From a virus: a stretch of DNA of 64,000 nt. Below the pieces are notes generated by a model that saw nothing but the letters and a program-made list of their open reading frames with translations, ran no database searches and was not told the DNA's origin. A program made the position numbers and the translations under genes. Below are positions 5,066-63,839 of this stretch, in pieces (position 1 is the stretch's first letter; each line of letters opens with the position of its first letter). The stretch lies in IMG/VR virus record IMGVR_UViG_3300014819_000003, positions 27,276 through 91,275 of that record. One strand, written 5' to 3'.

Positions 5066-6036
5066 TGGAGATTTTAAGGATTCCCCCATATCCACTTGAA
5101 ATTGAGTATACAGTGCCGACAGCAAGCACATCATATTTTCTTGTTATAGAAAGTAATGATAGAAATGAAGAATTGGTAGATGTAGCGGTTACATCAAACT
5201 CAAGTTCTGTGGTTTCTTATACTCTATCTGACACTCTTGCAAAGTATGATGAGCACTACGCCCTAACAATTTATGAAAAAAATGGTGCTAATCGTGGAGA
5301 TATTGTTGTTGAAGATAATTTAGAGATAGTAAGACCATATGTTGATCCAAATACACTTGCAACTACTGCCACAGAAATAGCACAATATAGAGAATATGAG
5401 GCTTTGGCTCGTCAAATTATTGATGCCTATGTTCCAGATGGATTTTATTTTACAACAGAATGGCTACAGGTAGTAGGACAAGGCACAGATTATATGCCTA
5501 TTTGGATGCGTGGATATAAGGTTCTTAAGGTGTATGAAAATGCTGAGAAGGTTTGGGATGTTGATGACGCTGATGGTCCAGCCCTTGACGAATATGACTA
5601 TAGCATTACAAAAGATAAAACAGCAATTATTAAAGATCCAGTCGCTGGTGTAGATAACTGGAATAGAGATGAGCGCAAACCAGCAAGAACTGCTATGGCA
5701 GCATCAGACTCATTTGATTGGTATGATACTGGAGATAGTGCAAATATTCAAACCTTCAAGGGTGGAGTAAGTTTTCCAGAAGGTGCAGACTATATGTTTT
5801 ATATTGAGGCAGGGTATAAAGTAGTTCCTAACGATATTAAAGATGCAACTAATATGCTTATTGAAGATATCAAGTGTGGAAAGTTAGATTATTATAAACG
5901 ATATGTTGATAACTATAGAACAGATCAGTTTAGTATAAAGTATAACCCTATGATGCTAGAGGGCACTGGAAATCTTTTAGTAGATAAAATTTTAGATAAA
6001 TATGTAAATGTGGTAACTCGTCCTGGAGTATTATAA
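5065..6036 (+). CDS. Head-tail adaptor-like protein
   Basis: A 323-residue protein. Residues 1-90 look like an all-beta, Ig-like domain. Residues about 100-320 are mixed, with a helical core (IAQYREYEALARQIID) as seen in gp6/gp15-type adaptors that dock under the portal. Its place, second after the capsid and before the stopper-like gene, supports the call. The N-terminal beta domain is an addition to the usual small adaptor (about 100-150 residues) and could sit on the outside of the neck. The family assignment is moderate. Confidence 0.5.
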   Translation: MEILRIPPYPLEIEYTVPTASTSYFLVIESNDRNEELVDVAVTSNSSSVVSYTLSDTLAKYDEHYALTIYEKNGANRGDIVVEDNLEIVRPYVDPNTLATTATEIAQYREYEALARQIIDAYVPDGFYFTTEWLQVVGQGTDYMPIWMRGYKVLKVYENAEKVWDVDDADGPALDEYDYSITKDKTAIIKDPVAGVDNWNRDERKPARTAMAASDSFDWYDTGDSANIQTFKGGVSFPEGADYMFYIEAGYKVVPNDIKDATNMLIEDIKCGKLDYYKRYVDNYRTDQFSIKYNPMMLEGTGNLLVDKILDKYVNVVTRPGVL

Positions 6037-6485
6037 TGGTGATCTGCGAAGATACCGACTTTATTTATCCTATGAAGGCTGATGTTTATTATCCTATAAT
6101 TACTCAAGGCGATTATGGACAACCAAAAAAACAATGGGTTCTTGATAGAACAATAGCCTGTAATGCAACATCAGTAGGCGGTGCTGGTGAAGAAAATATT
6201 AAACCAGAAGTTTTTCTTCAATATGAAAATAAGTTAGTTGCTAGAACAAAAGCAGATCCAAGAATTTCTTCTCAAAAAGGAACAAACGCTATATCAAATA
6301 TTCTAATAACAAATGTTAGACATGCTAATGATGAAATTATATATAAAGAAACCGCAGGAGTTCGTGCTGGTAAGTCAACAATATTTGAAATTGCTACAGT
6401 AGAGCCATATGTTGGTCCTTTTAATACAGTAGAATATTATAAAATGTTGTGGCGTAGAGCAGAAAACCAGAATGTTGGTGACTAA
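6036..6485 (+). CDS. Head closure (stopper)-like protein
   Basis: A 149-residue, beta-rich protein (ADVYYPIIT, then repeated strands) at the position of head-closure proteins such as SPP1 gp16 or HK97 gp7. It overlaps both neighbours by one base (TAATG-type junctions), so translation is probably coupled. Sequence evidence for the family is weak and the call rests mainly on size, strand pattern and order. Confidence 0.5.
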   Translation: MVICEDTDFIYPMKADVYYPIITQGDYGQPKKQWVLDRTIACNATSVGGAGEENIKPEVFLQYENKLVARTKADPRISSQKGTNAISNILITNVRHANDEIIYKETAGVRAGKSTIFEIATVEPYVGPFNTVEYYKMLWRRAENQNVGD

Positions 6486-7162
6486 TGATAGTCTCTTTCG
6501 ACTTTAAAAAGTTTCAAAAAACAATGAATAATGTTGTTGATTATTCGTATGGATTTATTGATGGCATTGAAAAAGGTAAACCTAAGTTTTTAGAAAAATT
6601 AGGCAGGGAAGTTATAGTAGCACTAGGCCAATATATAGACCTCAATGCCAGGGCAAATCCTTCAGCAATGCACCATGTATACGAGTGGTATAGAACTGGA
6701 AGTCCAGCATCAAGACTATTTGATATAGATTTTGTAGTTAATAAGAATGGCCTTGTTTTATTTTCAAATTTTAAACAATCAAGGTCTATGTCTGCAGATG
6801 CAACTACGCCATTTTTTAATAAAGCAAAAATAATGGAACAAGGTAGAACAGTAGTAATAAAACCTAAAAGTGGATCAGTTCTTGCCTTTGAAGATGGTGG
6901 ACAAACAATATTTACAAAAAAACCAATTACAGTTAGAAGTCCTGGAGGAGACGAAGTTCAGGGATCTTATGAAAAGGTTTTTGATGAATTTATGGTTAGA
7001 TATTTTAAACAGTCATTTATTCGTGCTTCTGGTCTTTATGATTATATTAAAAAACCAACGGCATTTAAAAAGAATATTCGTGCTGGAGCAAAAGTAGGTA
7101 GATCAAAAGGCGTTAGTACTGGTTTTAGTTGGATAGCAGATGCAAGAATTGGGGTAGAATAG
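6485..7162 (+). CDS. Neck / HK97 gp10-like protein
   Basis: A 225-residue protein lying between the stopper-like and tail-terminator-like genes, where HK97 gp10-type tail-completion proteins usually occur. It is longer than gp10 (about 130-150). It has a helical N-terminal half and a basic C-terminus containing KKPTAFKKNIRAG and a Lys/Gly/Arg-rich end. No catalytic motif was seen. The function is inferred from gene order. Confidence 0.45.
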   Translation: MIVSFDFKKFQKTMNNVVDYSYGFIDGIEKGKPKFLEKLGREVIVALGQYIDLNARANPSAMHHVYEWYRTGSPASRLFDIDFVVNKNGLVLFSNFKQSRSMSADATTPFFNKAKIMEQGRTVVIKPKSGSVLAFEDGGQTIFTKKPITVRSPGGDEVQGSYEKVFDEFMVRYFKQSFIRASGLYDYIKKPTAFKKNIRAGAKVGRSKGVSTGFSWIADARIGVE

Positions 7163-9663: not shown

Positions 9664-12600
9664 GTGGCTGATGTTAACGCAAATATTGGCGTACATATTG
9701 ACACCTCTGCAACTATTGCTCAACTCAAGGCACTACGTGCTGAGATATCTAGATTTAATCAATCTGTAATAAAATCAAGCGCTTCTGCTGCTATAGCACA
9801 GCGTGATCTACAAACCAACCTAGTAAATGCTATAAATGCCACTGGCAAATTCCATGCCAAGATGGGCTTAATTAGAACATCTACAGAGTCCTTTACACAT
9901 GCCCTTGAAACCAATAAACTTTCAATGCGTGAGTACTTCAGGTACGCTGGCGGGGCAAGTACAACATTCCGTAAACTATTTACAAAAGAATTTGACACTA
10001 TAAGTCAGGTTGCTGCAGACCGTGTAAAGAGAATGCAGACTCAATATGTTAAGTTGGGTCGTGATGCATCTGGAGCAATGAAGGCAATATCCATAACTCC
10101 TACAACCTTAAATATGAAGGACTATGGAACTCAAGTTGCAATGGCAGCACAGAGACAGGCACTTTTAAATCAATTATTGAAACAAGGATCAACTAATCTA
10201 TTAAATTTTGGTAAGAATACTCAATGGGCTGGTCGCCAGTTGATGGTTGGTTTTACAGTTCCACTAGCCTATCTTGGAACATCAGCAGCCAAAACATTTA
10301 TGGCAATTGAAGAACAGGTTATCAAATTTAAACGTGTTTATGGTGAAATGTTTACTACTTCAGACCAAACAAATAAGGCTTTAGAGGACGTTAGAAGGCT
10401 TGCTGAAGAATTTACAAAATATGGTGTTGCTGTAGAAAAAACAATTGAACTTGCAGCAAAGGCTGCTGCTACAGGTAAGATGGGTGCAGATCTTACTGCA
10501 CAGGTTGCAGAAGCAACAAGGCTTGCTGTTCTTGGTGGAGTTGAACAAGAAGAGGCTCTAGATACAACAATTTCATTAACAAATGCATTTGGAATAGCGG
10601 CTGCAGATTTAAGTAAAAAGATTGACTTCCTTAACGCAGTAGAAAACCAAACAGTTGTATCTATTGAAGATTTAACTATTGCAGTTCCAAAGGCTGGACC
10701 AGTTATTCAGCAACTAGGCGGTAATGTAGAAGACCTTGCATTCTTTTTAACTGCCATGAAAGAAGGTGGCATTAATGCATCTGAAGGTGCTAACGCTCTA
10801 AAGTCTGGTCTTGCATCTCTTATTAATCCAACAGATAAAGCATCCAAAATGTTGGGTGAGTTGGGAATTAATATTAAGGGAATTGTTGAAGCAAATAAAG
10901 GAAATGTAAAAGGCGTAGTTCTTGATTTTGCTGCAGCATTAGACACTCTTGATCCACTAAATCGTGCTCGTGCTATTGAACAATTATTTGGTAAATTCCA
11001 GTTTGCTCGTTTATCTACTTTATTTTCAAATGTTTCTAAAGAAGGAACACAGGCATCAAGGGTATTAGATTTAGCAACTGCATCAGTTGAAGAACTTGCT
11101 ATTATTTCAGAACGAGAATTAAAAGCAGTAGAAGATGCTATTGGAACAAATTTTAAAGAAGCAGTTCAGCAGTTAAGACTTGCTTTAGAGCCAATAGGAA
11201 AAGAATTTTTAAAAGTTATCACCCCTATAGCACAAACCATAGCAAACCTTTTAGATAAATTTAATAATCTTGGCGACGGAACAAAGAAATTTATTGTTAT
11301 TGCTACAACATTAGTAGGGGTAATAGGACCAACATTTTTGATGACATTTGGTTTGCTTGCTAACGCAGTTGCTAATATTATTAAATTATTTACAACAATG
11401 CGTGGTGGATTTTTAAGGCTTAAAGGTGGATCAGCAGTCCTTGCAGAACAAACAAATTATTTAACCAAAGAGCAAATGGAGGCAACAACTGTTGCTGCTG
11501 CTCTTGATCAAGCACATAATAGATTAACTCAAAGATTTACATCAGAGGCTGTAGCATTACAGAAACTAAGAGCAGCATTTGATAGTGCTTCTGCAGCGCA
11601 GGCAAGATTTGCTGCTACCAATCCAGGAATGATGATTCCAGGATTTAAAGGTGCAAAGAAATTTAATTTTGGAACCATGAAAGTTCCAGGGTATGCAAAA
11701 GGAACTGACACAGTACCTGCAATGCTTACACCTGGAGAAGCAGTTATTCCAGCAGACATAGCACAAGATGAAAGATTTAAACCAATCATTCAGGCACTAG
11801 TAACTGGAGATCTTCCAGGATATCAAGATGGAACTGAGGGAGTTGGTAAACAGTCTGGAAGAAAACTCAAACAAACAGTATTTTTTGATTTTGATGATAC
11901 CTTGGCTAGAAGCACATCTGCTATAGAACAATGGAAAGCAGAACGTGGAATCACTGGCAAGACTACACCAGAAATGTATGATGCATTTAATAAAGATGTT
12001 GTTGCTGGAAGAAAAGTTCCAATCATACAAGAAAATATTGATAAACTAAAAAGACTTCAGGCTGCTGGTGTTGATGTTAGAATTTTGACTGCTAGAACTG
12101 CAAATGAAACTAACTTAGAATCACTTAAAAAAGTTTTAGCATCAAATGGTGTAATAATCCAAGATAGTAAAATTCAATTAAATAATACTGGAGATACTGA
12201 TGCAAAATTTAAAGCATCACATATTAAGGGCTTTTTAAAAGATAATCCAGATTCTAGAGCACAGTTAATAGATGACAAAATAGAAAATGTAAAAGCAGTA
12301 AGAGCACTAAGTTCTGCAAAAGATATGTCTAAGAGATTTGGTGCTGTTGTTACCTCTGCTGCTGTCGAACCTGCCGAGTTTGTTAAGATGAAAGACGGAG
12401 TTCTTGGAGTTAAGTTCCAAGGAAGAACTTATCCAGTTGGAGAAAATGAAGCAAAAGCAAAAGCAGTTGTTACTAAACTCAATGATGAACTCGCTGCTCA
12501 AAAATCACAAGAAGGAAGAATTAAAACTGCAAACTGGGCAACAAACAGATTTGGGGAACTAGTAGATGCTAGAGACAAAGGTAGATTAATAAGCACATCA

Positions 12601-46165: not shown

Positions 46166-46993
46166 ATGAAAAAGGTAGTGGGTATATTAGTAATTCTATT
46201 TACTGCTGCGTATTTGCCAGCAGTATCTGCAGAAGAAAAACCAGCAATTGCAATTATTGATACAGCAATTGATACTAATGTTGTAAAGGTTTTTTATGAA
46301 GTTTGCGTAATGCAAGAAAAACGTTGTCCAAACAAACAAACATTTATGGAAGGTCCAGGATCTGCGACTCTTCCAGCATCACAACTATATAAAAATGGAT
46401 TTCATCATGGAACAGTAATGGCTTCCATTGCTGCATCTATTAATCCTAATATGAACATTGTTTTTGTTCGTATTGTTCCTATGGCAAATAATGGTCGTCA
46501 AGGTTTTTATGGAGAGAATGATTTAAATGGTGCATTTCAGTGGGTACTTGCAAATAAATCAAGATTTAATATTGTTGCAATCTCTGCATCATTAGGTAGC
46601 CATAGTTTTAAATCTATGACAAACTATTGCCCTGTGCGGGAATATCTTCGTAAGAGCATTACTGATTTACAAAGTCTAGGAGTAGCAACTGTTCTTGCTG
46701 CTGGTAATAATTATGATAAACAGCGTGTTGACTTTCCAGCATGTATTTCTGAGTCTATTGCAGTAGGTTCTGTTGGAGAACGTGGCAATATTGAAAACTA
46801 TAGTAATGGTGGACCAGATTTGGACTTCTATGCTTTAGGAACATATGATACTGCTCTTGGTAGGGCTATGGGTACTTCTGCTGCTACCGCTGCATTTGCT
46901 GCATACTGGGCAAAAAATTACAAGGGTACTTATCAAGCAACATATGATAATGTAAAATCATTATCTAAAGATCTTGTAGTATCAGTTAAGTAG
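46166..46993 (+). CDS. Secreted subtilisin-like serine protease
   Basis: A 275-residue S8-family protease with a signal peptide (MKKVVGILVILF, cleavage near VSAEE at 22-23). The catalytic triad is visible: D32 (IIDTAID), H81 (HHGTVMA) and S238 (GTSAAT), with an AAGNN oxyanion element. There is no propeptide of normal size between the signal peptide and the first Asp. It should act outside the membrane, on host surface or competing proteins. A strong AAAGGAG SD precedes ATG 46166. Confidence 0.85.
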   Translation: MKKVVGILVILFTAAYLPAVSAEEKPAIAIIDTAIDTNVVKVFYEVCVMQEKRCPNKQTFMEGPGSATLPASQLYKNGFHHGTVMASIAASINPNMNIVFVRIVPMANNGRQGFYGENDLNGAFQWVLANKSRFNIVAISASLGSHSFKSMTNYCPVREYLRKSITDLQSLGVATVLAAGNNYDKQRVDFPACISESIAVGSVGERGNIENYSNGGPDLDFYALGTYDTALGRAMGTSAATAAFAAYWAKNYKGTYQATYDNVKSLSKDLVVSVK

Positions 46994-47060: not shown

Positions 47061-47492
47061 ATGGTAAGTTCATTTGCATTGGATCTATTTAAGGATCCAT
47101 TTTTTATTGGTTTCAACAGAGAGTTGGACCGACTTTCAAATATCCATCGTGAGGCTGTTCGTCAATCTTTTCCACCATATGATTTGGTGAAACTTGATGA
47201 GGACACCTATAGGATATCTCTTGCAGTTGCTGGTTTTAACAGCAGCGAAGTAGAGGTTTCTGTGGATAATGGAAGTTTAATTATCAAGGGTGAGAAAACC
47301 GATGAGGCTTCTACAGAAGTCTTACATAAGGGTATCGCAACCAGAAAGTTCACACGCACCTTTGCTCTTGGAGAGTATATGGAGGTTGATCGTGCTGAAA
47401 TGGCAGACGGTATTCTTAATGTCTTTGTGGAAAGAAACATTCCCGAAGAAAAGAAACCTAAAAAAATCGCAATTAAGTCTACAAAAAAGTAG
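47061..47492 (+). CDS. Hsp20/alpha-crystallin small heat shock protein
   Basis: A 143-residue chaperone that holds unfolding proteins. The alpha-crystallin domain runs from about 38 to 125, with YRISLAVAGF, SLIIKGEK and a FTRTFALGE strand. The C-terminal extension has the I-x-I-like motif IAIKS. Phage Hsp20 genes are known in cyanophages and others and may aid capsid folding or stress survival. It follows the protease and HslV-like genes, so this region has two proteases and one chaperone. Confidence 0.9.
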   Translation: MVSSFALDLFKDPFFIGFNRELDRLSNIHREAVRQSFPPYDLVKLDEDTYRISLAVAGFNSSEVEVSVDNGSLIIKGEKTDEASTEVLHKGIATRKFTRTFALGEYMEVDRAEMADGILNVFVERNIPEEKKPKKIAIKSTKK

Positions 47493-51625: not shown

Positions 51626-52588
51626 ATGACACAACAAGATCCAAGATTTTTTTGCTACAAAGAAGAATACTTTGGTGGCACAGAATATATGGCTAGATAT
51701 TTTCATAAAAATGTAGCCCCATTTTTGCCACAACTAAAACAATACAACTGTTTAATTTTGCCAGGGCAAACAGATAAACCATATGCTGAATTGATATACG
51801 AACCAAAAGAAATTATTATATGGCTACATAATCTAGTAGATCAATTTGGTTTTCAACTTTATCATCTTTTTACAGATAAAAGATTTATAGATAAAATCAA
51901 ATACATAATTACTGTATCTGAATATCATAGACAAGACGTTATTAACAAGACTGGTATTGATCCAAACAAAGTTATTGTTATCTATAACGCTATTGATCCT
52001 ATTGAAAATGATCTTTCAAGGTTTGAAAATGTAGATGTTCCACAACTCATATACACATCTTCGCCAGGACGAGGGTTGGAAATAGGTTTAACTGCACTAT
52101 CCAAATTAGATATTGAATTTAGACTTAGTATTTTCAATGAAATAGTTCCAGACCTAGTAAGAATAGATGATGGCAATAGAAAAATACTAGAAGATCCACG
52201 TTTCTTTTTCTATGGTAAAACCCCGCATAAAACAGTTCTAGATCATATGTCACGTTCGCATATCTTCATGCATACAAGTAATTGGCATGAAACGTTCTGC
52301 TTGTCTCTTGTAGAGGGCCTAAGTGCTAACTGTTTGTCTGTATACAGTACTTTTGGATCTTTAGGGGAAGTAGGATCTGGATTTGGTTTGCCATACGATA
52401 TAGAAAATAATACACAAAAAGATATAGAAAAGCATGTACAAGTTTTTTCTAATAAGATTACTAAAGCAATTGAAATGATCAAAAAGGGAGATTTTGATCC
52501 AGGTAATCAAGCAGAAACTATAAATAATAAGTTTTCTTGGGATAACTTTAAAAATGCTTGGATTGATTTTTATGAAAAGAGAATATAA
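51626..52588 (+). CDS. GT-B glycosyltransferase (GT4-like)
   Basis: A 320-residue glycosyltransferase. The N-terminal Rossmann half includes IWLHNLVDQFG and the GT4-like YIITVSEYHRQD. The C-terminal half has a donor-site stretch (YTSSPGRGLEIGL, then HTSNWHETFCLSLVEGLSAN with the E-x7-E-like acids). It transfers a sugar from a nucleotide donor to an unknown acceptor. It lies on the plus strand, separate from the minus-strand carbohydrate cassette. Confidence 0.8.
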   Translation: MTQQDPRFFCYKEEYFGGTEYMARYFHKNVAPFLPQLKQYNCLILPGQTDKPYAELIYEPKEIIIWLHNLVDQFGFQLYHLFTDKRFIDKIKYIITVSEYHRQDVINKTGIDPNKVIVIYNAIDPIENDLSRFENVDVPQLIYTSSPGRGLEIGLTALSKLDIEFRLSIFNEIVPDLVRIDDGNRKILEDPRFFFYGKTPHKTVLDHMSRSHIFMHTSNWHETFCLSLVEGLSANCLSVYSTFGSLGEVGSGFGLPYDIENNTQKDIEKHVQVFSNKITKAIEMIKKGDFDPGNQAETINNKFSWDNFKNAWIDFYEKRI

Positions 52589-52801: not shown

Positions 52802-53083
52802 ATGAAGCAGCACCTCTGGAAAGATGATGCTTTGTGTCTAGGATCAGATACAAATATATTCTTTGATGTATATGAAGAAAAAACAGATACAAGAGAGTTT
52901 GTTGATTCTCTTTGTCGTACCTGCCCAGTAGCAAGACAATGTTTTGCTGTTGGTGTCTCTGGTAAAGAGTGGGGCATATGGGGCGGGGTATATTTAGAAG
53001 AAGGCGAAATATCAAAAGAATTTAATAATCATAAGACTAAACAAGATTGGTCTTATACTTGGCAAGCATTAACGATGGGATAG
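52802..53083 (+). CDS. WhiB-family transcriptional regulator
   Basis: A 93-residue WhiB protein. Four conserved cysteines, C12, C38, C41 and C47 (CRTCPVARQC), bind a 4Fe-4S cluster, and the GIWGG turn follows near 58-62. The family is confined to Actinobacteria and their phages. It may act with the host sigma factor on host or phage promoters, or block a host WhiB. It uses ATG 52802 with little SD. Confidence 0.9.
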   Translation: MKQHLWKDDALCLGSDTNIFFDVYEEKTDTREFVDSLCRTCPVARQCFAVGVSGKEWGIWGGVYLEEGEISKEFNNHKTKQDWSYTWQALTMG

Positions 53084-54882: not shown

Positions 54883-55134
54883 ATGACACAAAAAGAACTA
54901 AAGGCAATGCTTGCATCATACGCACGTTCAGTCGTTGGTGCAGCAGCAGCGCTGTACGCTGCAGGAGTAACAGATCCAAAAGATCTATGGGCAGCACTTG
55001 TTGGTGCGCTAATTCCAGTAGCAGCACGTGCAGTCAATCCTAACGATCCAGCATTTGGACGTTTGCCAGCAGCATCTGCTGTTGAGTCGGCTTTGAAGAA
55101 GGCTAAGTCAAAGAAGGCTAAAGACGCAGAGTAA
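54883..55134 (+). CDS. Small Ala-rich hydrophobic phage protein
   Basis: An 83-residue protein with two amphipathic or membrane helices (YARSVVGAAAALYAAG and DLWAALVGALIPVAARAV), the phrase NPNDPAFGR, and a Lys-rich tail (KKAKSKKAK). It has its own promoter, a strong SD, C-rich codons and a terminator, so it is likely abundant. It could be a minor virion protein or a holin. It ends the plus-strand block. Confidence 0.55.
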   Translation: MTQKELKAMLASYARSVVGAAAALYAAGVTDPKDLWAALVGALIPVAARAVNPNDPAFGRLPAASAVESALKKAKSKKAKDAE

Positions 55135-55154: not shown

Positions 55155-55182
55155 AGCGGGCTTAGAAATAGGCCCGCTTTTT
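55155..55182 (+). terminator. Terminator at the end of the plus-strand block
   Basis: AGCGGGC (55155-55161) pairs with GCCCGCT (55172-55178), followed by T. It separates the plus-strand genes from the converging minus-strand cassette. Confidence 0.85.
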
Positions 55183-56230
55183 ATTTTAAAGAATCAAACA
55201 ATTCTAAATATTTATCTTTAAGAATTTCTGGAGAAAAAGATTCAATACCTATATCTAAAGCCTTCTGTTTAAGTTGCATTTGATCCTTTTTTCTCATACT
55301 AATATAGTTGTCAATAAGTCTTGCTAATTGTTTGGGGTCACCTGAATATACATCAATAATAGATTTTGCTCTAAATTCTCCAACTTTTTCTGCATCTATC
55401 AACCATTCTTTTGGCAAAACTTGATTATTAGGTGATAGGTCTGTCATAAAAACTGGAAGCCCACTGATCAATGCTTCATTCATTGGAAGGCAAAGTCCAG
55501 CATATCTTCTTGGCAAAATCATAGCGTCATATCCAGCATATAGATCTTCTCTGTTTTTTATATTTTGATGACGAAACGAAACTCGTGGATCTCGTGGTCT
55601 TCCTTCTAATTCAGTCTGGGAAGTTATAACCAAACTATAATCTTCTTTAGAATATTTTAGCATCTCAAGAACTGTATCTGTACCATTTCTATCTCTGGCA
55701 GCCTTTTTTCCAGCCACATGTAAAATACGATTATGAGTTCTAGCCATGTTTTCATTTCTTGCTTTATTGAATAGACTTATATCTGTTGGTGGGGGTAAAT
55801 GAATAAGTTTAGCCTGATCTCCAAACCTAGTCTGCATTTCTTCAAACTTCCATAGGCTAGGTGCCACAAGAACATCTGGAAGAGACTCATCTTTACGCTC
55901 TATATTGACTAAAAACTCATAGTTATATTGCAGTATTGTTTTAACACCCATGTCTCTTGCTATATCTATAAATAAAGAAGAATAAAATGTTTCACAAGAA
56001 AAAACTACATCTAAATCTCTAAGGAATGATATTATTTCTCCACGCTTAGGAAATCCAAATCTAGTGACTGCTTGTTCATAGCCTTGATACCAATCAATAT
56101 TTTGTTTATTTTTATTAAATGAACTAGAATCAATTATAAGAACTTTTCTTGGATTTAACATTTTTACAAGTTCTCTGGTTTGATTACCGAGGCCAGTATT
56201 ATCGCACCTTACTATCATTCCCAGGTTCAT
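55181..56230 (-). CDS. GT-B glycosyltransferase (GT4-like)
   Basis: A 349-residue glycosyltransferase, last gene of the minus-strand cassette. The N-terminal domain includes RCDNTGLGNQTRELVK and FSCETFYSS. The donor-binding half has ILHVAGKKAARDRNGTD and a LPRRYAGLCLPMNEALISG segment with the conserved acidic position. It overlaps the next gene by 4 nt (ATGA). The donor and acceptor are unknown. Confidence 0.8.
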   Translation of the reverse strand: MNLGMIVRCDNTGLGNQTRELVKMLNPRKVLIIDSSSFNKNKQNIDWYQGYEQAVTRFGFPKRGEIISFLRDLDVVFSCETFYSSLFIDIARDMGVKTILQYNYEFLVNIERKDESLPDVLVAPSLWKFEEMQTRFGDQAKLIHLPPPTDISLFNKARNENMARTHNRILHVAGKKAARDRNGTDTVLEMLKYSKEDYSLVITSQTELEGRPRDPRVSFRHQNIKNREDLYAGYDAMILPRRYAGLCLPMNEALISGLPVFMTDLSPNNQVLPKEWLIDAEKVGEFRAKSIIDVYSGDPKQLARLIDNYISMRKKDQMQLKQKALDIGIESFSPEILKDKYLELFDSLK

Positions 56231-56976
56231 TCTTTATACCCCCAGACTAAATCATCTGTAGTAAACTTTCTTGTTCCTTCACGACCATCTAAATGATATG
56301 ATCTTTTTATTCCACCTTCTGGATGATAGATCCAAAGTTTATGTTTGCTCCAACCAAGATCTCCATGAATTTTGCAGTCTTCAATTACAATACCATGAAA
56401 ACCATCTTCAATAAATGTTCCTTTCCATGCTTTTTGTAAAACCTCATTTCTATAATATATGACTCTAGATAAATGTGGTCTCTGACTCCACTGAGAAGTT
56501 TTCATAAATCCATCTTCTAAACCAAACATTAAATGATTATGTTCGTGTGGAATCTGTTGTTCAAAGTGAAATCTAATTGTATTTGCTTTATCATACTCAA
56601 ACATATCTAAACATTTTTGCCAATCAATATTATCAGATGTAAGTGGTGCATCACCTTCAACATAAAGCAGTATTGGTGTTTTTATTAGATTTATTGTATC
56701 AAGCATCATATTAGTTTGATGCTCATGATTTCTAAATACTACTGGCAATACATTTTTCCACTCGTGCATACACTTCCAAAGAACTCTATTTTTATATTCA
56801 TCATAATCTTTTTTACGATCTCGCTGTTCTTCACGAAGTCCATCTATCTGCATAATTATTTCATTTTCTGGAAAGTGTTTACGAATAGCAGCAACTGTTT
56901 CGTCTATAATTCTGGTATCTGGATGGCTAGGCAAAACCGAGGTAGCCATAACAATAGTAACATCTCTAAGATGCAT
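56227..56976 (-). CDS. GT-A-like glycosyltransferase
   Basis: A 249-residue protein with the GT-A beginning (VTIVMATSVLPSHPDT) and an acidic metal-site stretch LLYVEGDAPLTSDN, which stands in for DxD. Later, IRFHFEQQIPHE and a LDGREGTRKF loop complete the domain. The 3' end overlaps the downstream gene by 4 nt. It most likely adds a hexose to a glycan; the substrate is unknown. Confidence 0.7.
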   Translation of the reverse strand: MHLRDVTIVMATSVLPSHPDTRIIDETVAAIRKHFPENEIIMQIDGLREEQRDRKKDYDEYKNRVLWKCMHEWKNVLPVVFRNHEHQTNMMLDTINLIKTPILLYVEGDAPLTSDNIDWQKCLDMFEYDKANTIRFHFEQQIPHEHNHLMFGLEDGFMKTSQWSQRPHLSRVIYYRNEVLQKAWKGTFIEDGFHGIVIEDCKIHGDLGWSKHKLWIYHPEGGIKRSYHLDGREGTRKFTTDDLVWGYKE

Positions 56977-57817
56977 TTAGATCCTCCATGATTTTAAATG
57001 CAAAATCTCTTTTATATTTAAGCCACCAGCATACCACCTTATGAAGGTTTGCAGGATAGTCATTCATTAGTTCTAGATATATTTTAGATAAATCATTCCA
57101 GTCATGTGTTAGTTGTACTGGTATAGATTTGCCATAAATATAGTCATAGTAGTTTATTTCTCTGCCCTGCGAATCTTTTCTATCTCCTATGGGTAAGGTA
57201 AGCATTTCTATAGCCTCAAAGAATCTAAATGAATCTATTACTTGTGCACCAGATGGTGCTGGAGCAACCTTAGCGCTTGCTAATTTTCGATAGTACTCCT
57301 GTGGTGGGTCACCCTGTGCAAAGCCCTCTGTAGGGCAGTACAGAGCGTTTTCCATGCTGGACATGGCCTTGGCTAACTCCTGCCTGCGTTGATGTGTAAT
57401 CTGTCCGCCAAAATAAATATTATGTTGTTTAATAGGATAATTAGGAAGATTGTTTTTTAGATGTTGAGGAACGCCGATAAAAAATCTATTATATTTTTCG
57501 TGTTTCTGGTGCGGGTATTGAATCCAAATACTTATATTAGGATGTTTAATGGCATCAGCATTAAACAAAGCACACTCATCTCCCGTTATAAATAATACAA
57601 CACGATTAAGGTTTGCTAATTCTTGATTGATTTGTTCTTCACTACCTGCGTTTCCTTGACCTGGTATTACAACAAAAGCCCTATCATCTTTTGGTATATT
57701 ATTTACTACAACTTGTTCTATATGATTACGTTCAAATGAGGATCGTAGTAGTTCATAATCCCATTTGCCATCAGCAGAGTCAAGTAGATTTGTAGAAAAA
57801 ATATAGGCTTTTATCAT
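56966..57817 (-). CDS. Exostosin-like glycosyltransferase
   Basis: A 283-residue protein. ATG 57817 is chosen over an in-frame ATG at 57832 because it makes the ATGA overlap with the previous gene. The C-terminal half has the exostosin-type phrase SAKVAPAPSGAQVIDSFRFFEAIEML. The N-terminal Rossmann half has FVVIPGQGNAGS. Confidence in the GT class is moderate. It overlaps the next gene by 11 nt. Confidence 0.65.
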   Translation of the reverse strand: MIKAYIFSTNLLDSADGKWDYELLRSSFERNHIEQVVVNNIPKDDRAFVVIPGQGNAGSEEQINQELANLNRVVLFITGDECALFNADAIKHPNISIWIQYPHQKHEKYNRFFIGVPQHLKNNLPNYPIKQHNIYFGGQITHQRRQELAKAMSSMENALYCPTEGFAQGDPPQEYYRKLASAKVAPAPSGAQVIDSFRFFEAIEMLTLPIGDRKDSQGREINYYDYIYGKSIPVQLTHDWNDLSKIYLELMNDYPANLHKVVCWWLKYKRDFAFKIMEDLNAS

Positions 57818-58401
57818 TTTATAATCTTCCATAAATCTTCTTCTACAATTAATTTTTCTATTAAATTATTATTGATTTGAGATTCATATTGTTTAATTGC
57901 TTTAATTTTTAAATCTGCATAACTTGTATTTATTTTATATAAGTTATATTTTGAATTAAATTTATATAGTCTTTTTAAATATAGTTCAGGATATAAAATT
58001 TTATATGGCAACTCTGCATAAATAAAATATGTTTTATTAAAATTGTCCATTAAACTAAAAAGAATATTGGATAAAAGTAAATGGTCTGGATGATGTATTC
58101 CCAATGGAATATAAATATTTTCATAATTAATAATAGTATCTTTTATCCAACTCAATAATAAACTTTCATCTTGTTTTCCATAAACATCATCTAATAAATC
58201 ATTATTAATAATGCTTGCACCAATTATTTGACAGGCGTACTCATGTTCTTTACGAAGCAATGTGTGTTTTTTAAAGCCAATATCATCATCAGGAATTCCA
58301 GCAAACGCTGATGCAATGGTAAAATTATTGTTTATACTAATATAGTCTCCCATAGAAAATATTGCATCATCTGTATGTGGAGAAAAAATTAAACTATTCA
58401 T
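57814..58401 (-). CDS. PIG-L/LmbE-type deacetylase
   Basis: A 195-residue deacetylase with the metal motif SPHTDD (H9, D11, D12) and a second HHPDH site (H104, H107). The family removes acetyl groups from N-acetylglucosamine on glycans or from mycothiol-like precursors. With the glycosyltransferases it suggests a modified amino sugar. It is AT-rich even by the standards of the cassette, with many runs of A and T. It overlaps its neighbours by 4 nt. Confidence 0.85.
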   Translation of the reverse strand: MNSLIFSPHTDDAIFSMGDYISINNNFTIASAFAGIPDDDIGFKKHTLLRKEHEYACQIIGASIINNDLLDDVYGKQDESLLLSWIKDTIINYENIYIPLGIHHPDHLLLSNILFSLMDNFNKTYFIYAELPYKILYPELYLKRLYKFNSKYNLYKINTSYADLKIKAIKQYESQINNNLIEKLIVEEDLWKIIK

Positions 58402-59147
58402 TTTCTAAAATACCAATGAGCCTCATGATTTTTTGCTAAAAACTCTCCACGATACCCTAGTGATTCTAAAAACCCTATTGTTTGCTCTGGAGTAGTGTTG
58501 TAGTCACGAATTCCAAGATCATCATGAATTGATATAAATATTTTTAAACTATTATTTTTTAATGTGTCTTCCGCACCTTTAAGAACTAAAAGTTCTGCAC
58601 CTTCAACGTCCATTGTAATTGCACTGGGCATTATGCCTGTTTCAGAAACAAAGTCATCAAGTTTAATAATTGGTATTTGTTCAGTATTATCATGAATATA
58701 TACATATTTATTTTTATCAATAATTGGACCTAAAGATCCTTTACCCCATCTATTAAGATCAGAACCTTCTCTGGTATCTGTTGTAATATCACCCATTAGT
58801 CCAGAATAACAACCACGTGGATCTATATTAAATCTTTTATACCACAATGCATGTATGTTGCCCCAAAATTCTGGAGTAGGCTCAATTAAAACCATATTTT
58901 CTGGTCCAACTATTTCAGCATAAACAAGGTTGCACCAACCAGACTCTGTTCCAATGTCAAAAAGAACATCACCTTTGCTAAGATGCTGTTTCATGCTTTC
59001 AATTCTTTCTCGTTCCCAATAGTCCCAAACATCCCAACTTGCTAGTGGCTCATTAAGAGTAAGTGTATAATCATAATTGAAACTTTCACCCTGACGAAGA
59101 TATCCAACTTCTTTCCATTTAATGTCATCTCTTTCTATAAACATCAT
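58398..59147 (-). CDS. FkbM-family methyltransferase (first copy)
   Basis: A 249-residue SAM methyltransferase. ATG 59147 overlaps the upstream stop by 4 nt and has AAAGGAG as SD. The SAM-binding motif is LFDIGTESGWCNLVYAE with the acid in LIEPTPEFW. The FkbM-specific ITMDVEGAELLVLKGAE and IFISIHDD segments follow. FkbM enzymes methylate hydroxyls on sugars or polyketides. A second copy is at 60849-61538. Confidence 0.85.
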   Translation of the reverse strand: MMFIERDDIKWKEVGYLRQGESFNYDYTLTLNEPLASWDVWDYWERERIESMKQHLSKGDVLFDIGTESGWCNLVYAEIVGPENMVLIEPTPEFWGNIHALWYKRFNIDPRGCYSGLMGDITTDTREGSDLNRWGKGSLGPIIDKNKYVYIHDNTEQIPIIKLDDFVSETGIMPSAITMDVEGAELLVLKGAEDTLKNNSLKIFISIHDDLGIRDYNTTPEQTIGFLESLGYRGEFLAKNHEAHWYFRK

Positions 59148-60097
59148 ATGCCCAACTCCTTTAGTATTTGTTCCCATCTATGAACATATGTATGCTCACG
59201 TTTAGTTCTTTCATGCCCTCGTAATCTTATCTGCTCTCTTTCATCATCATGTTCTAAATAATAATCTATCTTTTTCTTAAGATCATCAAGATTACCGTGT
59301 TCGTACCAAACAACTTCATCATCTTTAAAATATTGATCAAGACCAACTATCTTAGGATAAATAGTAAACCCACCACGACCAGTACTTTCAAACAATCTAT
59401 CACTTGTATAATATGGATAGTTAAAGTTAATATTTAATGTGTCACCGATTGCAATTTTACTACGAGCATATATACGATTAAGTGCATCGCCTCTTACAGT
59501 TCCAGTATCACCATCTCCACCCACATGACAAAAACGATCCGCATATGTTTCTCTTAAGAAATCTATAAGTTGTGGCCTAAAAGGATACTCTTGATGATAC
59601 CTTTTACTTCCAACAAAAATAACATCATAATCGTAATACTTTTTATTTTTATCTGGATGAATATAACATTCCTTGTCATAAACTCCAGGTGGCATAAAAT
59701 GACCTTTAACCTTTGTATTTTTATTAAACCAGTCTGCCATTAGTTTATCTACAGTAAAAAAGTGACCTATTGATCTATAGAAACCATCATTTTCAAGATC
59801 CTTTTGTCTGTTGATACCAAACCAAAGATCAAGATGATATGTCATTGTTGGTATTCCGTGCTTTTTTAATTCATGCAAAACATCAATCATATCTATGCTA
59901 CCAGGAGTTTGCCATCCATGAGTATGAACCCATATAAATAAATCAGAGTCAAGAGCCTCACTATAAATTACTTTAGCCTTTACCTTACGCTCTTGTAGTT
60001 TTATTACCGTGTGACCTAATGATTCAAGCGATGCCGCATGATGATTTTCGCTAGAATAGGGAACTTCAAAGTTTCCTAAAAAAGTAATTCGTGCCAA
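59144..60097 (-). CDS. CgeB-like glycosyltransferase
   Basis: A 317-residue glycosyltransferase of the CgeB/Glyco_trans_1_2 type: N-terminal ITFLGNFEVPYSSENHH and FIWVHTHGW, then DVIFVGSKRYHQ and the donor-site segment DRLFESTGRGGFTIYP. It starts at TTG 60097 with a GGAGG SD 6 nt away. It is the first gene of the left half of the cassette and lies behind the minus-strand promoter at 60119-60127. Confidence 0.8.
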   Translation of the reverse strand: MARITFLGNFEVPYSSENHHAASLESLGHTVIKLQERKVKAKVIYSEALDSDLFIWVHTHGWQTPGSIDMIDVLHELKKHGIPTMTYHLDLWFGINRQKDLENDGFYRSIGHFFTVDKLMADWFNKNTKVKGHFMPPGVYDKECYIHPDKNKKYYDYDVIFVGSKRYHQEYPFRPQLIDFLRETYADRFCHVGGDGDTGTVRGDALNRIYARSKIAIGDTLNINFNYPYYTSDRLFESTGRGGFTIYPKIVGLDQYFKDDEVVWYEHGNLDDLKKKIDYYLEHDDEREQIRLRGHERTKREHTYVHRWEQILKELGI

Positions 60098-60118
60098 ATT
60101 ATACCTCCACTTCTAAAT

Positions 60119-60127
60119 ATTATATCA
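60119..60127 (-). promoter_or_regulatory. Extended -10 promoter for the glycan cassette
   Basis: On the minus strand TGA is followed by TATAAT (plus coordinates 60119-60124). The GGAGG SD and TTG start of the glycosyltransferase follow. It touches the divergent box for the next gene. Confidence 0.6.
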
Positions 60128-60136
60128 TGCTATAAT
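60128..60136 (+). promoter_or_regulatory. Extended -10 promoter, divergent
   Basis: TGC then TATAAT at 60131-60136, immediately next to the minus-strand box at 60119-60127. It serves the plus-strand gene at 60154. Confidence 0.6.
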
Positions 60137-60153
60137 TGTTTGACGGGGTAAAA

Positions 60154-60846
60154 ATGAATTTTGTATACATATGTCGTGGTGGAGAGAATGAAGAACTTAG
60201 ATATTCTCTTAGATCAGTTGCTGCCAGTTTTCCAGACTCTAACATATGGGTTGTTGGCGGTATTCCAAAATGGTATTCTGGTAGTAAAATATCCATAGAG
60301 CAAAACGCTGGCAAATGGGCTAATGCTATAAATAACTTAAATGCAATAATTGAATCTTCCGATATACCAGAAGAGTTTGTTTTGATGAATGATGATTTCT
60401 TTATCATAAACAAGATAGACTCAATTAAACATTATCATGAAGGTCTTTTGCTTGATAAGATAGAAAAATATAATGAACTTAAAATGGATCCCAACTATGT
60501 AAAAAAACTTGGGCATACCTATGCAAGACTACAAAGAATGGGAGTAGAAAATCCAATTAGTTATGAAACGCATACTCCAATGACCATGCTAAAAGGCAGA
60601 TTAGAAGAGATTATGCAGTACTGTCCTCCTAGTTTATGGAGATCAATGTATGGCAATGTTCATCATGTGGGCGGGGAACAAATAAAAGACGTAAAGGTAT
60701 ACTATCGTGATAGATTTGCAACTATATCTCATGATTATACAGCGTCAGATTTACCAGTATTATCAACAGATGATGAGTCTTTTGTAACTGTAAGAGATTT
60801 AATATTAAAGAAAAAGTTTACAAAGAAAAGTAAATACGAAAAATAA
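60154..60846 (+). CDS. Stealth-like sugar-phosphate transferase
   Basis: A 230-residue protein from ATG 60154 after ACGGGG. It has the Stealth/GT-A pattern: FVYICRGGENEELRYSLRS at the start, IWVVGGIPKWY and the acidic FVLMNDDFFII site. Stealth proteins are hexose-1-phosphate transferases in capsule synthesis. It is the only plus-strand gene in the cassette and converges on the FkbM gene three bases away. Confidence 0.65.
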   Translation: MNFVYICRGGENEELRYSLRSVAASFPDSNIWVVGGIPKWYSGSKISIEQNAGKWANAINNLNAIIESSDIPEEFVLMNDDFFIINKIDSIKHYHEGLLLDKIEKYNELKMDPNYVKKLGHTYARLQRMGVENPISYETHTPMTMLKGRLEEIMQYCPPSLWRSMYGNVHHVGGEQIKDVKVYYRDRFATISHDYTASDLPVLSTDDESFVTVRDLILKKKFTKKSKYEK

Positions 60847-60848
60847 AA

Positions 60849-61538
60849 CTATCGCATGAAATGATAGTCCCCATCAGGGCCATTATCAGAGAACATTCCC
60901 ATACTATTAAAGCCTTGTGATGCAAGGTAGTCAATAATAACTTCTTTCTCAGGAGATCCTATATTATATTCTACATCTCTTAGTTCTACTATAAGGTGCT
61001 CGCAGGACTTTAATGATTCCGTTGCCCCCATGAGAACATCTAATTCAGCACCCTGAACATCAATTTTAATTAATTGTGGCTTATTCAACATTTTATATTT
61101 AGCGAGATCGTCGAGAGTTATTGTTGTCATTTCAACAATACTTTTATCATCAAAAAGATATTCTGCTGCTGGACTGTATTTAGGATTTTCTCTATAATAA
61201 GAGTTACCAGCAAAATTTTCGTTATTCTGATAAAACTTAATTTGTTTTCCAGATTCATTGCTAAGTGCTCCAATAAAATACTGTAGTCTACTTTCTAAAT
61301 ATAAAGTTTCAAATGCATCAGTTGCATCAAATAAAACTATCTCACTGTCTGGCCAAATCATTTCTGCTCTTTGTGTCCAATGTAGAACACACGCACCTAT
61401 GTCATATATTGTTGTAGGATAAAAATCAAATTGATGTTTTAGCCTAACTAAATAATCATGATGGTTTGTTGGTAGATTTTTATAATCACTTACCTTTTTT
61501 ATATTTTTAAGTATGCTTTCAGAGTATTGCTTTGCCAT
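60849..61538 (-). CDS. FkbM-family methyltransferase (second copy)
   Basis: A 229-residue SAM methyltransferase: TTIYDIGACVLHWTQRAE (SAM loop), IVLFDATDAFE, and the FkbM-type LIKIDVQGAELDVLMGATE. It differs clearly from the first copy, so it probably has a separate substrate. It overlaps the endonuclease gene by 20 nt. Confidence 0.85.
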   Translation of the reverse strand: MAKQYSESILKNIKKVSDYKNLPTNHHDYLVRLKHQFDFYPTTIYDIGACVLHWTQRAEMIWPDSEIVLFDATDAFETLYLESRLQYFIGALSNESGKQIKFYQNNENFAGNSYYRENPKYSPAAEYLFDDKSIVEMTTITLDDLAKYKMLNKPQLIKIDVQGAELDVLMGATESLKSCEHLIVELRDVEYNIGSPEKEVIIDYLASQGFNSMGMFSDNGPDGDYHFMR

Positions 61539-61887
61539 TAAGATATCCTATCGCTCTTTCTAATCTTAGCACATCATCCTGAAAGACACCAATGCCACGA
61601 TTACAGTTATGACATAAAAAGCCTCTAAAAGAGTCTGTTTCATGATTATGATCTACAACCCAAATACTTGCATTTCCACCAGATCCCTTTAACTGATCTT
61701 CATTCTTTAGGCATATGGGGCATATATATCCTGGATTTGGATATCCATATTGTTCTTTTAGTTCTTCTCTACGCTTTGCTAATTTTTTTGCACAGTTTTT
61801 ACACTCTGGTCTTAGATATCTTCCACCGCTAGATGGCGAAAATGCAGACTCATCTAGTTCAAACTTACACTTACTACATGTTTTCAT
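61519..61887 (-). CDS. Endonuclease VII-like resolvase
   Basis: A 122-residue His-Me finger nuclease. Zinc knuckles are C4/C7 with C29/C32. The active site is WVVDHNHETDSFRGFLC with CHNCNRGIG downstream, as in T4 gp49-type enzymes that cut branched DNA. The N-terminus carries an extra zinc finger. The ATG at 61887 lies two bases after the tRNA-Gly gene. It is the third junction nuclease of the window. Confidence 0.9.
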   Translation of the reverse strand: MKTCSKCKFELDESAFSPSSGGRYLRPECKNCAKKLAKRREELKEQYGYPNPGYICPICLKNEDQLKGSGGNASIWVVDHNHETDSFRGFLCHNCNRGIGVFQDDVLRLERAIGYLNGKAIL

Positions 61888-61889
61888 AG

Positions 61890-61960
61890 AGCGGATAGCG
61901 GGAATCGGACCCGCACATTAACCTTGGCAAGGTTACGCACTACCACTATGCAATATCCGC
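61890..61960 (-). tRNA. tRNA-Gly (GCC)
   Basis: A 71-nt cloverleaf on the minus strand: acceptor GCGGATA with TATCCGC, anticodon loop TTGCCAA giving GCC, T stem GCGGG with CCCGC. The 3' CCA is not encoded. Confidence 0.9.
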
Positions 61961-61964
61961 ATAG

Positions 61965-62038
61965 TAGAGCAGGTAGGACTTGAACCTACGATAACCGAAT
62001 TATGAGTTCGGGGCCTTGACCAACTTGGCTACTGCTCC
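61965..62038 (-). tRNA. tRNA with CAU anticodon (Met or Ile2)
   Basis: A 74-nt cloverleaf on the minus strand: acceptor GGAGCAG with CTGCTCT, anticodon stem CCGAA with TTCGG, loop CTCATAA giving CAT. The T arm reads GTAGG-TTCAAGT-CCTAC. It lacks the GGG/CCC anticodon stem of initiator tRNA. The TTCAAGT T loop is more like tRNA-Ile2, which reads AUA, common in this genome. Met is the default call. The 3' CCA is not encoded. Confidence 0.85.
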
Positions 62039-62039
62039 G

Positions 62040-62192
62040 CTATTTTTCACTAATTAACTTTTTAATATTATTAACTTTAGTATAAGCATCTCCACCAGCA
62101 TCAATTAGTTCCATAACCTCATCAAATGCTTGCTTGCGAGCCTTTTTACATCCGTTACAAGGACAGACCCAAGACTTACTTTTGTTTTCCAA
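62040..62192 (-). CDS. Small zinc-binding protein
   Basis: A 50-residue protein. TTG 62192 is chosen because it gives a short overlap with the upstream gene and places the CPCNGCKK zinc-like motif near the start. The helical rest (AFDEVMELIDAGGD) is acidic. The longer frame up to 62261 lies inside the glycosyltransferase gene. The function is unknown. Confidence 0.5.
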   Translation of the reverse strand: MENKSKSWVCPCNGCKKARKQAFDEVMELIDAGGDAYTKVNNIKKLISEK

Positions 62193-62970
62193 GGTCTTGC
62201 TTTCTCTTGATCTTACCTTCTCCAACACCAGTCCAATACATGTTGTAGTAGTTAATATCATAAGAGAATGTCTTTAGGTGTGCAACATGTGCGCCAGTAT
62301 GTGCATATGCTTGAATACCAGCCTGTTTTGCTTTTCTAAAAAATGAAACATCTTCACTAATAAATTTATTTGCTGCTTGTTGGTTTTCTCCAAATACAGA
62401 AAATTCTCCAGCAACTTCACGAACCTTTGGAACAACTGATCTATGCATTAGAACAAAACCAAAGCCAGCAACATCAACAGGAATTAATTGATTCTGTGGC
62501 ATAGGATGAATTGCTCTTGTTACATATTGGTTATCTGTGTCCATATAAAGAGCAGGTGTTGGCTCCATTAGACTTTGTTCATTTTCTTGGCTTACAAAAT
62601 ATACACCTGTTACTAGTGGTTTACTAATCTTGTCTGCTGAATCCCACAACAATTGGAATGCATCCATGCTCATGACAATATCTGAGTCTACCCACATCAA
62701 CCAATCACTTTGCATGTTATCGTACCAGTAATCAATAAGAGATTGTCTTTGTCTTGCAATTTGATTACCTTGAACACGAATACTGCTTGTTACTTTAATT
62801 CCCCTGCGCTGTGCTTCAAGCAGGGTATTTAACAAACCACTTGCAAATCTTCCTTCTACTGTACCACCATCACACCATGCAAACGATACTGTTTCCTTAT
62901 CGCTATGTCCAGATGTTGGCTTGTCTTGAATATTTTTAGGTTGTGCTTTACTAGGCTGCTTCTTGGCCAT
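62176..62970 (-). CDS. GT-A glycosyltransferase
   Basis: A 264-residue glycosyltransferase with a GT-A fold. The metal site is WLMWVDSDIVMS (DxD), followed by GVYFVSQE and a C-terminal acidic position EDVSFFRKAKQAG with a His pair (AHTGAHVAHL). The polar first 25 residues are disordered. It overlaps the 42-residue gene upstream by 20 nt. Confidence 0.85.
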   Translation of the reverse strand: MAKKQPSKAQPKNIQDKPTSGHSDKETVSFAWCDGGTVEGRFASGLLNTLLEAQRRGIKVTSSIRVQGNQIARQRQSLIDYWYDNMQSDWLMWVDSDIVMSMDAFQLLWDSADKISKPLVTGVYFVSQENEQSLMEPTPALYMDTDNQYVTRAIHPMPQNQLIPVDVAGFGFVLMHRSVVPKVREVAGEFSVFGENQQAANKFISEDVSFFRKAKQAGIQAYAHTGAHVAHLKTFSYDINYYNMYWTGVGEGKIKRKQDLGKQK

Positions 62971-63114: not shown

Positions 63115-63558
63115 TTATTCACAAATATATGAAAATGACATATGAAATTTATCTTCAGTTGCAGCATTCATTGGTGTATTAAAATCCATTGGTTCGTCGT
63201 ATCCAGATCCTGCATGTTGCCACAATGTCATAGTTGAACTGGATGGAGATAAATGTCCTTTTAGCGAATAATGTCTCAATGTTGGCGATGTATCATGTGC
63301 AGATCCACCATAAACATCTGTATGATATTTTGACGCAAATGGAATGGTTAGTGAATATTGTCCAGTTCCAAAATTTGTAACAGTTGTATATAAAACATCA
63401 ATTTGAACCATCACCCAGTTGCCAATTTTAATATATGATCCAGTTGCTGGAGTTCCAGTAAATGTAAGACCTGTACCAGACCATGTTGGACTATATGAAT
63501 TTATCTCAGTTGTAAGTCCGCCTACATCACCAAAAGCAGGATGCGTAAAACGTGCCAT
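63115..63558 (-). CDS. Short structural or fibre protein
   Basis: A 147-residue beta-rich protein (GTGLTFTGTPATGSYIKIG, MVQIDVLYTT, FGTGQYSLTIPF) of the kind seen at phage fibre tips or decoration sites. It has one cysteine near the end. The ATG overlaps the previous stop by one base. A virion role is inferred from composition. Confidence 0.55.
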   Translation of the reverse strand: MARFTHPAFGDVGGLTTEINSYSPTWSGTGLTFTGTPATGSYIKIGNWVMVQIDVLYTTVTNFGTGQYSLTIPFASKYHTDVYGGSAHDTSPTLRHYSLKGHLSPSSSTMTLWQHAGSGYDEPMDFNTPMNAATEDKFHMSFSYICE

Positions 63559-63839
63559 TAGTCTTTAGACTCCAGCCCAGTTTTAATAACTGCAGCAGTT
63601 AATCCGCTTGTGGAAGCAACAATGTAGAGGTGATCTTTCGACGGTAGTTCAAAAGATATTGAATGATTAGGAAGAATCCTAAATCCATAACTAGATGTTG
63701 TAACTCCCTCGCCACCTACATAAACATATCCTGCGGAATTATTATTTTGGATCGTAATATCAAAGCCAGAGTGAGTGGAACCAGGAGTTAGTTTGGTTGC
63801 GCTATCACTAGCGAGTGTATATATCTGATGTTCTGTCAT
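63558..63839 (-). CDS. Small beta-rich structural protein
   Basis: A 93-residue beta-rich protein (GFDITIQNNNSAGYVYVGGEG, FRILPNHSISFEL) resembling short jelly-roll capsid decoration or fibre proteins. It overlaps the upstream gene by 4 nt. It may form a complex with the next gene product. Confidence 0.55.
   Translation of the reverse strand: MTEHQIYTLASDSATKLTPGSTHSGFDITIQNNNSAGYVYVGGEGVTTSSYGFRILPNHSISFELPSKDHLYIVASTSGLTAAVIKTGLESKD

Follow-up and report, generated by a model that had tools for sequence, protein, structure and literature searches.

A compact gene cassette for building and decorating a sugar chain in a lake virus of an actinobacterium

Organization of the cassette

The 64,000-nucleotide stretch analysed here (the window) covers bases 27276–91275 of the 91,275-base IMG/VR virus record IMGVR_UViG_3300014819_000003 and carries on its minus strand a glycan cassette centred on six overlapping genes, F-E-D-C-B-A, which run as an operon from 60097 down to 55181. 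The plus strand of the window encodes the terminase large subunit (TerL) and has the portal, tail and replication genes. A WhiB gene of the window (52802–53083; PF02467, E 9e-13) points to an actinobacterial host, WhiB being an actinophage marker according to the paper that isolated the first phages of Nanopelagicales (PMC10202952). The source is a lake virus of an actinobacterium that carries a compact set of enzymes for building and decorating a sugar chain. The record is incomplete: one relative (L003; related loci carry L numbers below) runs about 8.8 kb beyond the window end. The operon contains the following genes:

59144–60097, minus: F, GT-B glycosyltransferase (PF13524, E 3e-27; phrog_28745)
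58398–59177, minus: E, FkbM methyltransferase of allele type E1 (PF05050, 36.5 bits; cut-off 22.7)
57814–58401, minus: D, PIG-L-type deacetylase, an optional module (PF02585, E 2.7e-5, and motifs)
56966–57832, minus: C, predicted GT-B glycosyltransferase of an unnamed family (AlphaFold2 fold, near GT114/exostosin)
56227–56976, minus: B, predicted GT-A glycosyltransferase of an unnamed family (AlphaFold2 fold and motifs)
55181–56230, minus: A, GT-B glycosyltransferase and last gene of the operon (PF00534, 29.4 bits, above the cut-off; phrog_2170)

Neighbouring genes overlap by 34 (F/E), 4 (E/D), 19 (D/C), 11 (C/B) and 4 (B/A) bases, which suggests a single transcript with coupled translation. 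F, the first gene, has a TTG start with GGAGG upstream; a promoter scan returned 45 sites against 44.5 expected. The cassette genes are intact and under purifying selection: the ratio of nonsynonymous to synonymous substitution rates (dN/dS) in comparison with relatives is 0.02–0.25, mostly 0.03–0.2, with one uninformative value at a dS of 0.01, and this conservation excludes chance open reading frames. No 19-residue segment of any cassette protein reaches 1.5 on the Kyte–Doolittle scale, and from their sequences all of the enzymes look soluble. The 83-residue neighbour at 54883 was considered as a holin, for which neither Pfam nor hydropathy gave support.

A first-pass annotation, made from the letters alone, had named nine genes in this region, the six of the operon and three flanking genes (G, H and J, listed below), and we found all nine to be intact and correctly placed and oriented. 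Its five minus-strand glycosyltransferases (GTs) hold, A, F and J by Pfam or PHROG matches, B and C by predicted folds, as do its two different FkbM methyltransferases, E and H. The deacetylase assignment of D was also upheld: its PF02585 score of 25.1 bits falls just under the cut-off of 28.2, but the zinc-site motifs PHTDD and HPDH, which fit the (P/A)HxDD and HPDH patterns of the family, are present in the window and also in L005.

Predicted folds of B and C

Neither Pfam nor PHROG has a match for B or C, and sequence-profile searches of the PDB with either protein gave nothing meaningful. We therefore rely on AlphaFold2 models, built with 48 relatives for B (pLDDT, the confidence score of the model, 87.4) and 52 for C (pLDDT 93.4). 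Foldseek places the B model among GT-A enzymes, namely B4GALNT1, POMGNT-type enzymes (POMGNT1), ppGalNAc transferases, RmlT, SpsA and TarS/TarP, and the protein has an invariant ExD motif (E107, D109) and the signature QWSQRPH. The C model is placed among GT-B enzymes; its top PDB match is AO75L (E 1e-5, probability 1.00, TM-score 0.35–0.44), followed by exostosins, HMW1C and PimA. A075L of chlorovirus PBCV-1 is the β-xylosyltransferase of the glycan on the capsid protein VP54 and the founder of GT114 (PMC11571054). Since the profile search with C found no A075L chain at E ≤ 1, we regard this as a resemblance of fold and not as membership of GT114. By predicted fold, B and C are thus glycosyltransferases, and they would represent two undescribed, unnamed families. 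A protein search among 50,697 phage records found no relatives of either, and distant members of the B family used as queries likewise found none.

A constant core with exchanged decorating enzymes

Order counts were taken over 199 phage or prophage loci with distinct B proteins, in which the core F-(E)-C-B-A recurs with a fixed order. Of the 112 loci that could be tested for F, 108 have it ahead of B on the same strand. A comes immediately after B in 184 of 198 loci, the two genes overlapping by a median of 4 bases, and C either stands as a gene of its own (143 loci) or forms a fusion with B (49). The section between F and C is of another kind: among the 73 loci that have both genes it occurs in 17 combinations, made up of an NAD-dependent epimerase, FkbM types E1 and E2, two S-adenosylmethionine (SAM)-dependent methyltransferases, a GT-like gene and PIG-L. 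The E1 type of the window is replaced in most relatives by an FkbM type of about 27–30% identity. On a core tree (F, C, B and A; 101 rows; FastTree), 18 changes are needed for the E type, 16 for the epimerase, 11 for D and nine for the small methyltransferase. Sister pairs with a near-identical core differ in E type (L026/L028 and L033/L037) or in D together with a methyltransferase (L054/L090). The divergence of neighbouring genes is also uneven: identity with L005 is 91% for F and 96% for J but only 58% for C, which points to recombination within the cassette.

The optional nature of D rules it out as the cassette-defining gene. It is present in 12 of about 82 close loci, and deacetylation is thus not a core feature. 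The proposal in the first-pass annotation of a methylated and deacetylated glycan therefore remains a fair inference for the window's phage, but its deacetylated part does not extend to the cassette in general. A methyltransferase of 169–182 residues accompanies D in 13 of 17 D-bearing loci, compared with none of the 84 without D (p 3e-13); counted as independent pairs, about nine go the same way and none the opposite (9/9 informative, with a typical pairing). In phages with both genes the amine freed by D may be methylated. The window has D without this partner, and its D has a guanine–cytosine content of only 23%, compared with 32–36% in the other operon genes. Given this low value and the missing methyltransferase, D looks recently acquired.

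Relatives of the cassette carry further glycan genes. L011 has a nucleoside triphosphate transferase (6035–6679), a NodU/CmcH-type carbamoyltransferase (10967–12496) and an N-acetylglucosamine (GlcNAc) transferase of PF11397 (19252–20184; E 4e-56), a family of hydroxyproline GlcNAc transferases, and L100 has a gene that by eye resembles a sulfotransferase (2866–3405). A TauD-type dioxygenase and a fusion of adenylylsulfate (APS)-kinase-like and cytidylyltransferase-like parts (L057 823–1635 and 13778–14551) and a luciferase-type monooxygenase-like gene (L083 10570–11439; recognized by eye, with no Pfam match) were also seen. Right after the cassette, L104 (1721–2722) and L193 have a gene that by eye resembles SAM synthetase, which would feed the cassette methyltransferases.

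Distribution and genomic context

Searching IMG/VR with F gave 192 relatives, 80 of which were retained, and B aligns to at least 569–580 stretches. A nucleotide search of phage isolates with the cassette region gave no match. In bacterial and archaeal genomes, a contig scan with C found no relatives, and a scan with B found nine loci, assigned to Nocardia asiatica, Nocardia sp., an Actinomycetes metagenome-assembled genome (MAG), Acidimicrobiia, Saccharibacteria, Moranbacteria, Firmicutes, a Heimdallarchaeota MAG and an uncultured bacterium; host assignments through MAGs are only as reliable as the binning. The neighbours of these nine loci are a ParB-like/DNA methyltransferase gene, terminase, portal and other phage genes, not host glycan loci, so that we regard all nine as prophages or phage contigs. 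One Nocardia contig with B is itself an IMG/VR entry. We found no description of the F-E-C-B-A block in the open literature, subscription papers being outside the search.

Outside the freshwater lineage to which the window belongs, TerL follows the block within 8 kb on the same strand in at least 33 loci and precedes it in two, with checks against PHROG; our home-made terminase search misses divergent terminases, which makes 33 a lower bound. In these loci the block thus heads the packaging and structural genes. Isolated phages provide further links to virion genes. The closest isolate homologue of J (52% identical) lies between fibre genes of Planktophila phage LanE43-AprE7 (OX376640), one of the first isolated Nanopelagicales phages (PMC10202952). 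In Streptomyces phages Dryad and Yara, the F homologue immediately follows the gene of a 1206–1293-residue protein in the tail/lysis region, with more sugar and methyltransferase genes behind it. Relatives of G lie just before the terminase gene in Mycobacterium phages, and three genes ahead of it in Malthus.

Genes flanking the operon

Around the operon, the following genes were found:

60136–60846, plus: G, Stealth_CR2-like sugar transferase, divergent from F (phrog_7999, E 1e-55, function unknown)
60849–61538, minus: H, second FkbM methyltransferase (PF05050, 56.6 bits; cut-off 22.7)
61519–61887, minus: endonuclease VII/HNH gene (PF02945, 51.3 bits)
62176–62970, minus: J, GT-A glycosyltransferase (phrog_34859, E 4e-96; Pfam GT2-like families below the cut-off)
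63115–63558 and 63558–63839, minus: two small genes upstream of J, possible virion proteins (no Pfam match)
51626–52588, plus: additional GT-B glycosyltransferase (phrog_2170, E 5e-17; PF13439, PF00534)

H, the HNH gene, two tRNA genes and J all lie on the minus strand upstream of the operon. The Stealth-like gene announced by the first-pass annotation is G, in which only CR2 of the CR1–CR4 regions was seen, at 27.1 bits under a cut-off of 39.4. H is confined to close relatives (nine loci). The GT at 51626–52588, absent from the earlier gene list, is conserved in close relatives. As for the HNH gene, several relatives lack it or have it in diverged form or at another place; the genes for tRNA-Gly(gcc) and tRNA-Met(cat) adjoin it inside the cassette region (61519–62038), and the same position holds a gene for a 244-residue protein of unknown family in L003 and a different 141-residue one in L005. 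The two small genes at 63115–63839 are kept beside J in L003 and L006, and the second of them also in L010–L013.

The left end of the record has Gly/Ser/Thr-rich fibre-like genes (L001 4687–13945 and 8782–9180), candidate glycan acceptors, in a block that resembles one of Planktophila phage E7 (L314 4042–7988). A family of proteins of about 235 residues, weakly DUF6065-like and with a jelly-roll suggested from sequence (L001 11637–12347, L086 5890–6594, L011 9294–9986, L005 12815–13534), recurs beside J, beside the cassette (25 loci) and in the fibre-gene region of the window's phage. By eye, we also noted two phage genes of the window: one (46166–46993) looks like that of a subtilisin-type protease and has a signal peptide, the other (47061–47492) looks like that of a small heat-shock protein.

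Acceptor of the glycan

That these genes form one cassette that builds and modifies a glycan, as the first-pass annotation had supposed, is well supported by the overlapping operon, the fixed order in 199 loci and the swapped decorating enzymes. From what was observed (which genes are present and in what order, their folds and conservation, the repeated exchanges and the neighbouring genes), we infer a phage-specific pathway that equips a virion protein with a glycan that is methylated and sometimes also de-N-acetylated, a reading to which we give a probability of roughly 60%. The soluble enzymes F, C, B and A would act in the cytoplasm during infection, drawing on host nucleotide sugars, and assemble a short, conserved oligosaccharide on a virion protein that the phage itself encodes, be it of the tail fibre, the tail tube or the capsid. 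The FkbM enzymes E and H would O-methylate this glycan and the PIG-L enzyme D would de-N-acetylate an amino sugar; the sugars themselves and the order of the reactions are likewise deduced from the genes. Phages exchange the decorating enzymes encoded between F and C, so that close phages would bear different outer glycans on a constant core, like serotypes.

Three acceptors were weighed: DNA, the host envelope and the virion. We favour the virion on the grounds of the position of the block, the soluble enzymes and the precedents of mycobacteriophages and chloroviruses. The earlier annotation had leaned towards virion or envelope over DNA, and the searches bear this out. Phages do glycosylate their DNA with diverse glycans (Pyle 2024, as cited in PMC12619734), DNA glycosylation has been proposed for freshwater actinophages (PMC10202952), the position near the terminase would also suit DNA, and the GT of one relative has a weak TAGT match (6e-5, below the cut-off). 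However, among 40 records, which may be fragments and in which an unknown hydroxylase would escape such searches, there is no PF00303 (thymidylate synthase and related hydroxymethylases), no TAGT and no TET/JBP enzyme (PF12851) over the cut-off, only four places below it, in three records; no base-hydroxylation enzyme was found on the window's own contig, nor in records of 104–181 kb. Glycosylation of modified DNA bases by the cassette is thus improbable. We also consider it unlikely, if less so, that the target is a surface glycan of the host, remodelled in the course of infection or lysogeny to block superinfection or change the receptor. Phage GTs are known to alter host surface glycans, which the isolated Nanopelagicales phages have been suggested to do as well (PMC10202952), and the PIG-L, FkbM, epimerase, nucleotidyltransferase and carbamoyltransferase genes of the relatives are typical of envelope glycan loci. 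Yet the cassette has no membrane protein, flippase or lipid-phosphate glycosyltransferase, and the same core occurs in phages of hosts with very different envelopes, a spread over several phyla of hosts and MAGs that fits a phage-encoded acceptor better than the glycan of one host lineage. In addition, a position at the head of the terminase and portal genes would imply late expression, when exclusion would be of little use. The terminase-side position, the multi-phylum spread and the absence of transmembrane segments thus favour the virion over the envelope. Finally, the low-GC D (23%), the HNH gene and the tRNAs suggest acquisition by transfer, as would be expected of unrelated glycan genes picked up separately as morons with no joint product; such a collection is contradicted by the conserved order and by the C–B fusions (49 of the 199 loci, from distant phages), as well as by the translational overlap and the co-occurrence of D with its methyltransferase, and we give it hardly any credence.

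Several observations weigh against a virion acceptor. The link to packaging and structural genes is found in distant relatives and isolates, whereas in the window's own freshwater lineage the block is beside the terminase in none of 94 loci and lies on the opposite strand from most late genes. The close relatives of the window form one lineage, so that gene co-occurrence counts are not independent. Soluble GTs could also act, at the inner face of the membrane, on host glycans that are lipid-linked or secreted, or could modify DNA through some unknown route. With TM-scores of only 0.35–0.44, the match to AO75L backs the GT function of C and not the acceptor.

It is a tentative extension, for which the odds fall a little short of even, that F-E-C-B-A is a phage-specific pathway with two undescribed GT families that ranks among the most common glycosylation systems to be found in uncultured tailed phages and coats virions with a constant core, recombination switching the outer decorations into serotypes comparable to O-antigens or to chlorovirus antigenic variants. 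Virion glycosylation has so far been demonstrated for few tailed phages, chiefly mycobacteriophages. If the cassette acts in this way too, it would be a widespread case, its core conserved enough to be named, and would give enzymologists two new GT families. As the decorating section differs between near-identical phages, bacteria-like variation of phage surface sugars would become testable, as would its effect on adsorption, aggregation and recognition in lakes dominated by acI Actinobacteria.

Comparison with known systems

The cassette shares with T4- or TET-type DNA glycosylation the co-location of phage GTs with accessory enzymes, and differs from it in that no base-hydroxylating enzyme was found in the 40 records. 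Bacterial O-antigen and capsule loci have conserved flanking GTs around exchangeable central sugar-modifying genes. The cassette has the same layout of constant GTs and an exchangeable middle set, but it has no polymerase, flippase or membrane component, and it is phage-borne and often beside the terminase.

With virion glycosylation it has in common GTs that are phage-encoded and, from their sequences, soluble. In mycobacteriophages, GTs (Che8 gp110, Corndog gp38 and those of Myrna) modify capsid and tail-tube proteins, according to the summary in PMC12363180 of Freeman 2023. Here too the GTs are encoded by an actinobacteriophage, and relatives of G stand ahead of the terminase in Mycobacterium phages; those cases are described with few GTs (two in Maravista), whereas here a core of four is joined by swappable decorating enzymes. 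The closest system in its working is the capsid glycosylation of chloroviruses, whose machinery, with A064R, A061L and A075L in PBCV-1, has mostly soluble GTs and produces a conserved core and a variable outer glycan with terminal O-methylation by viral methyltransferases (PMC9614988, PMC7826918). Virus-encoded soluble GTs, an invariant core, a variable outer part and terminal O-methylation would all recur here, judging from the genes. The present case concerns a tailed phage and no giant virus, with a compact operon and the option of a PIG-L deacetylase, and C has no sequence similarity to the solved A075L structures; in its predicted fold, C nevertheless resembles A075L, the GT114 enzyme.

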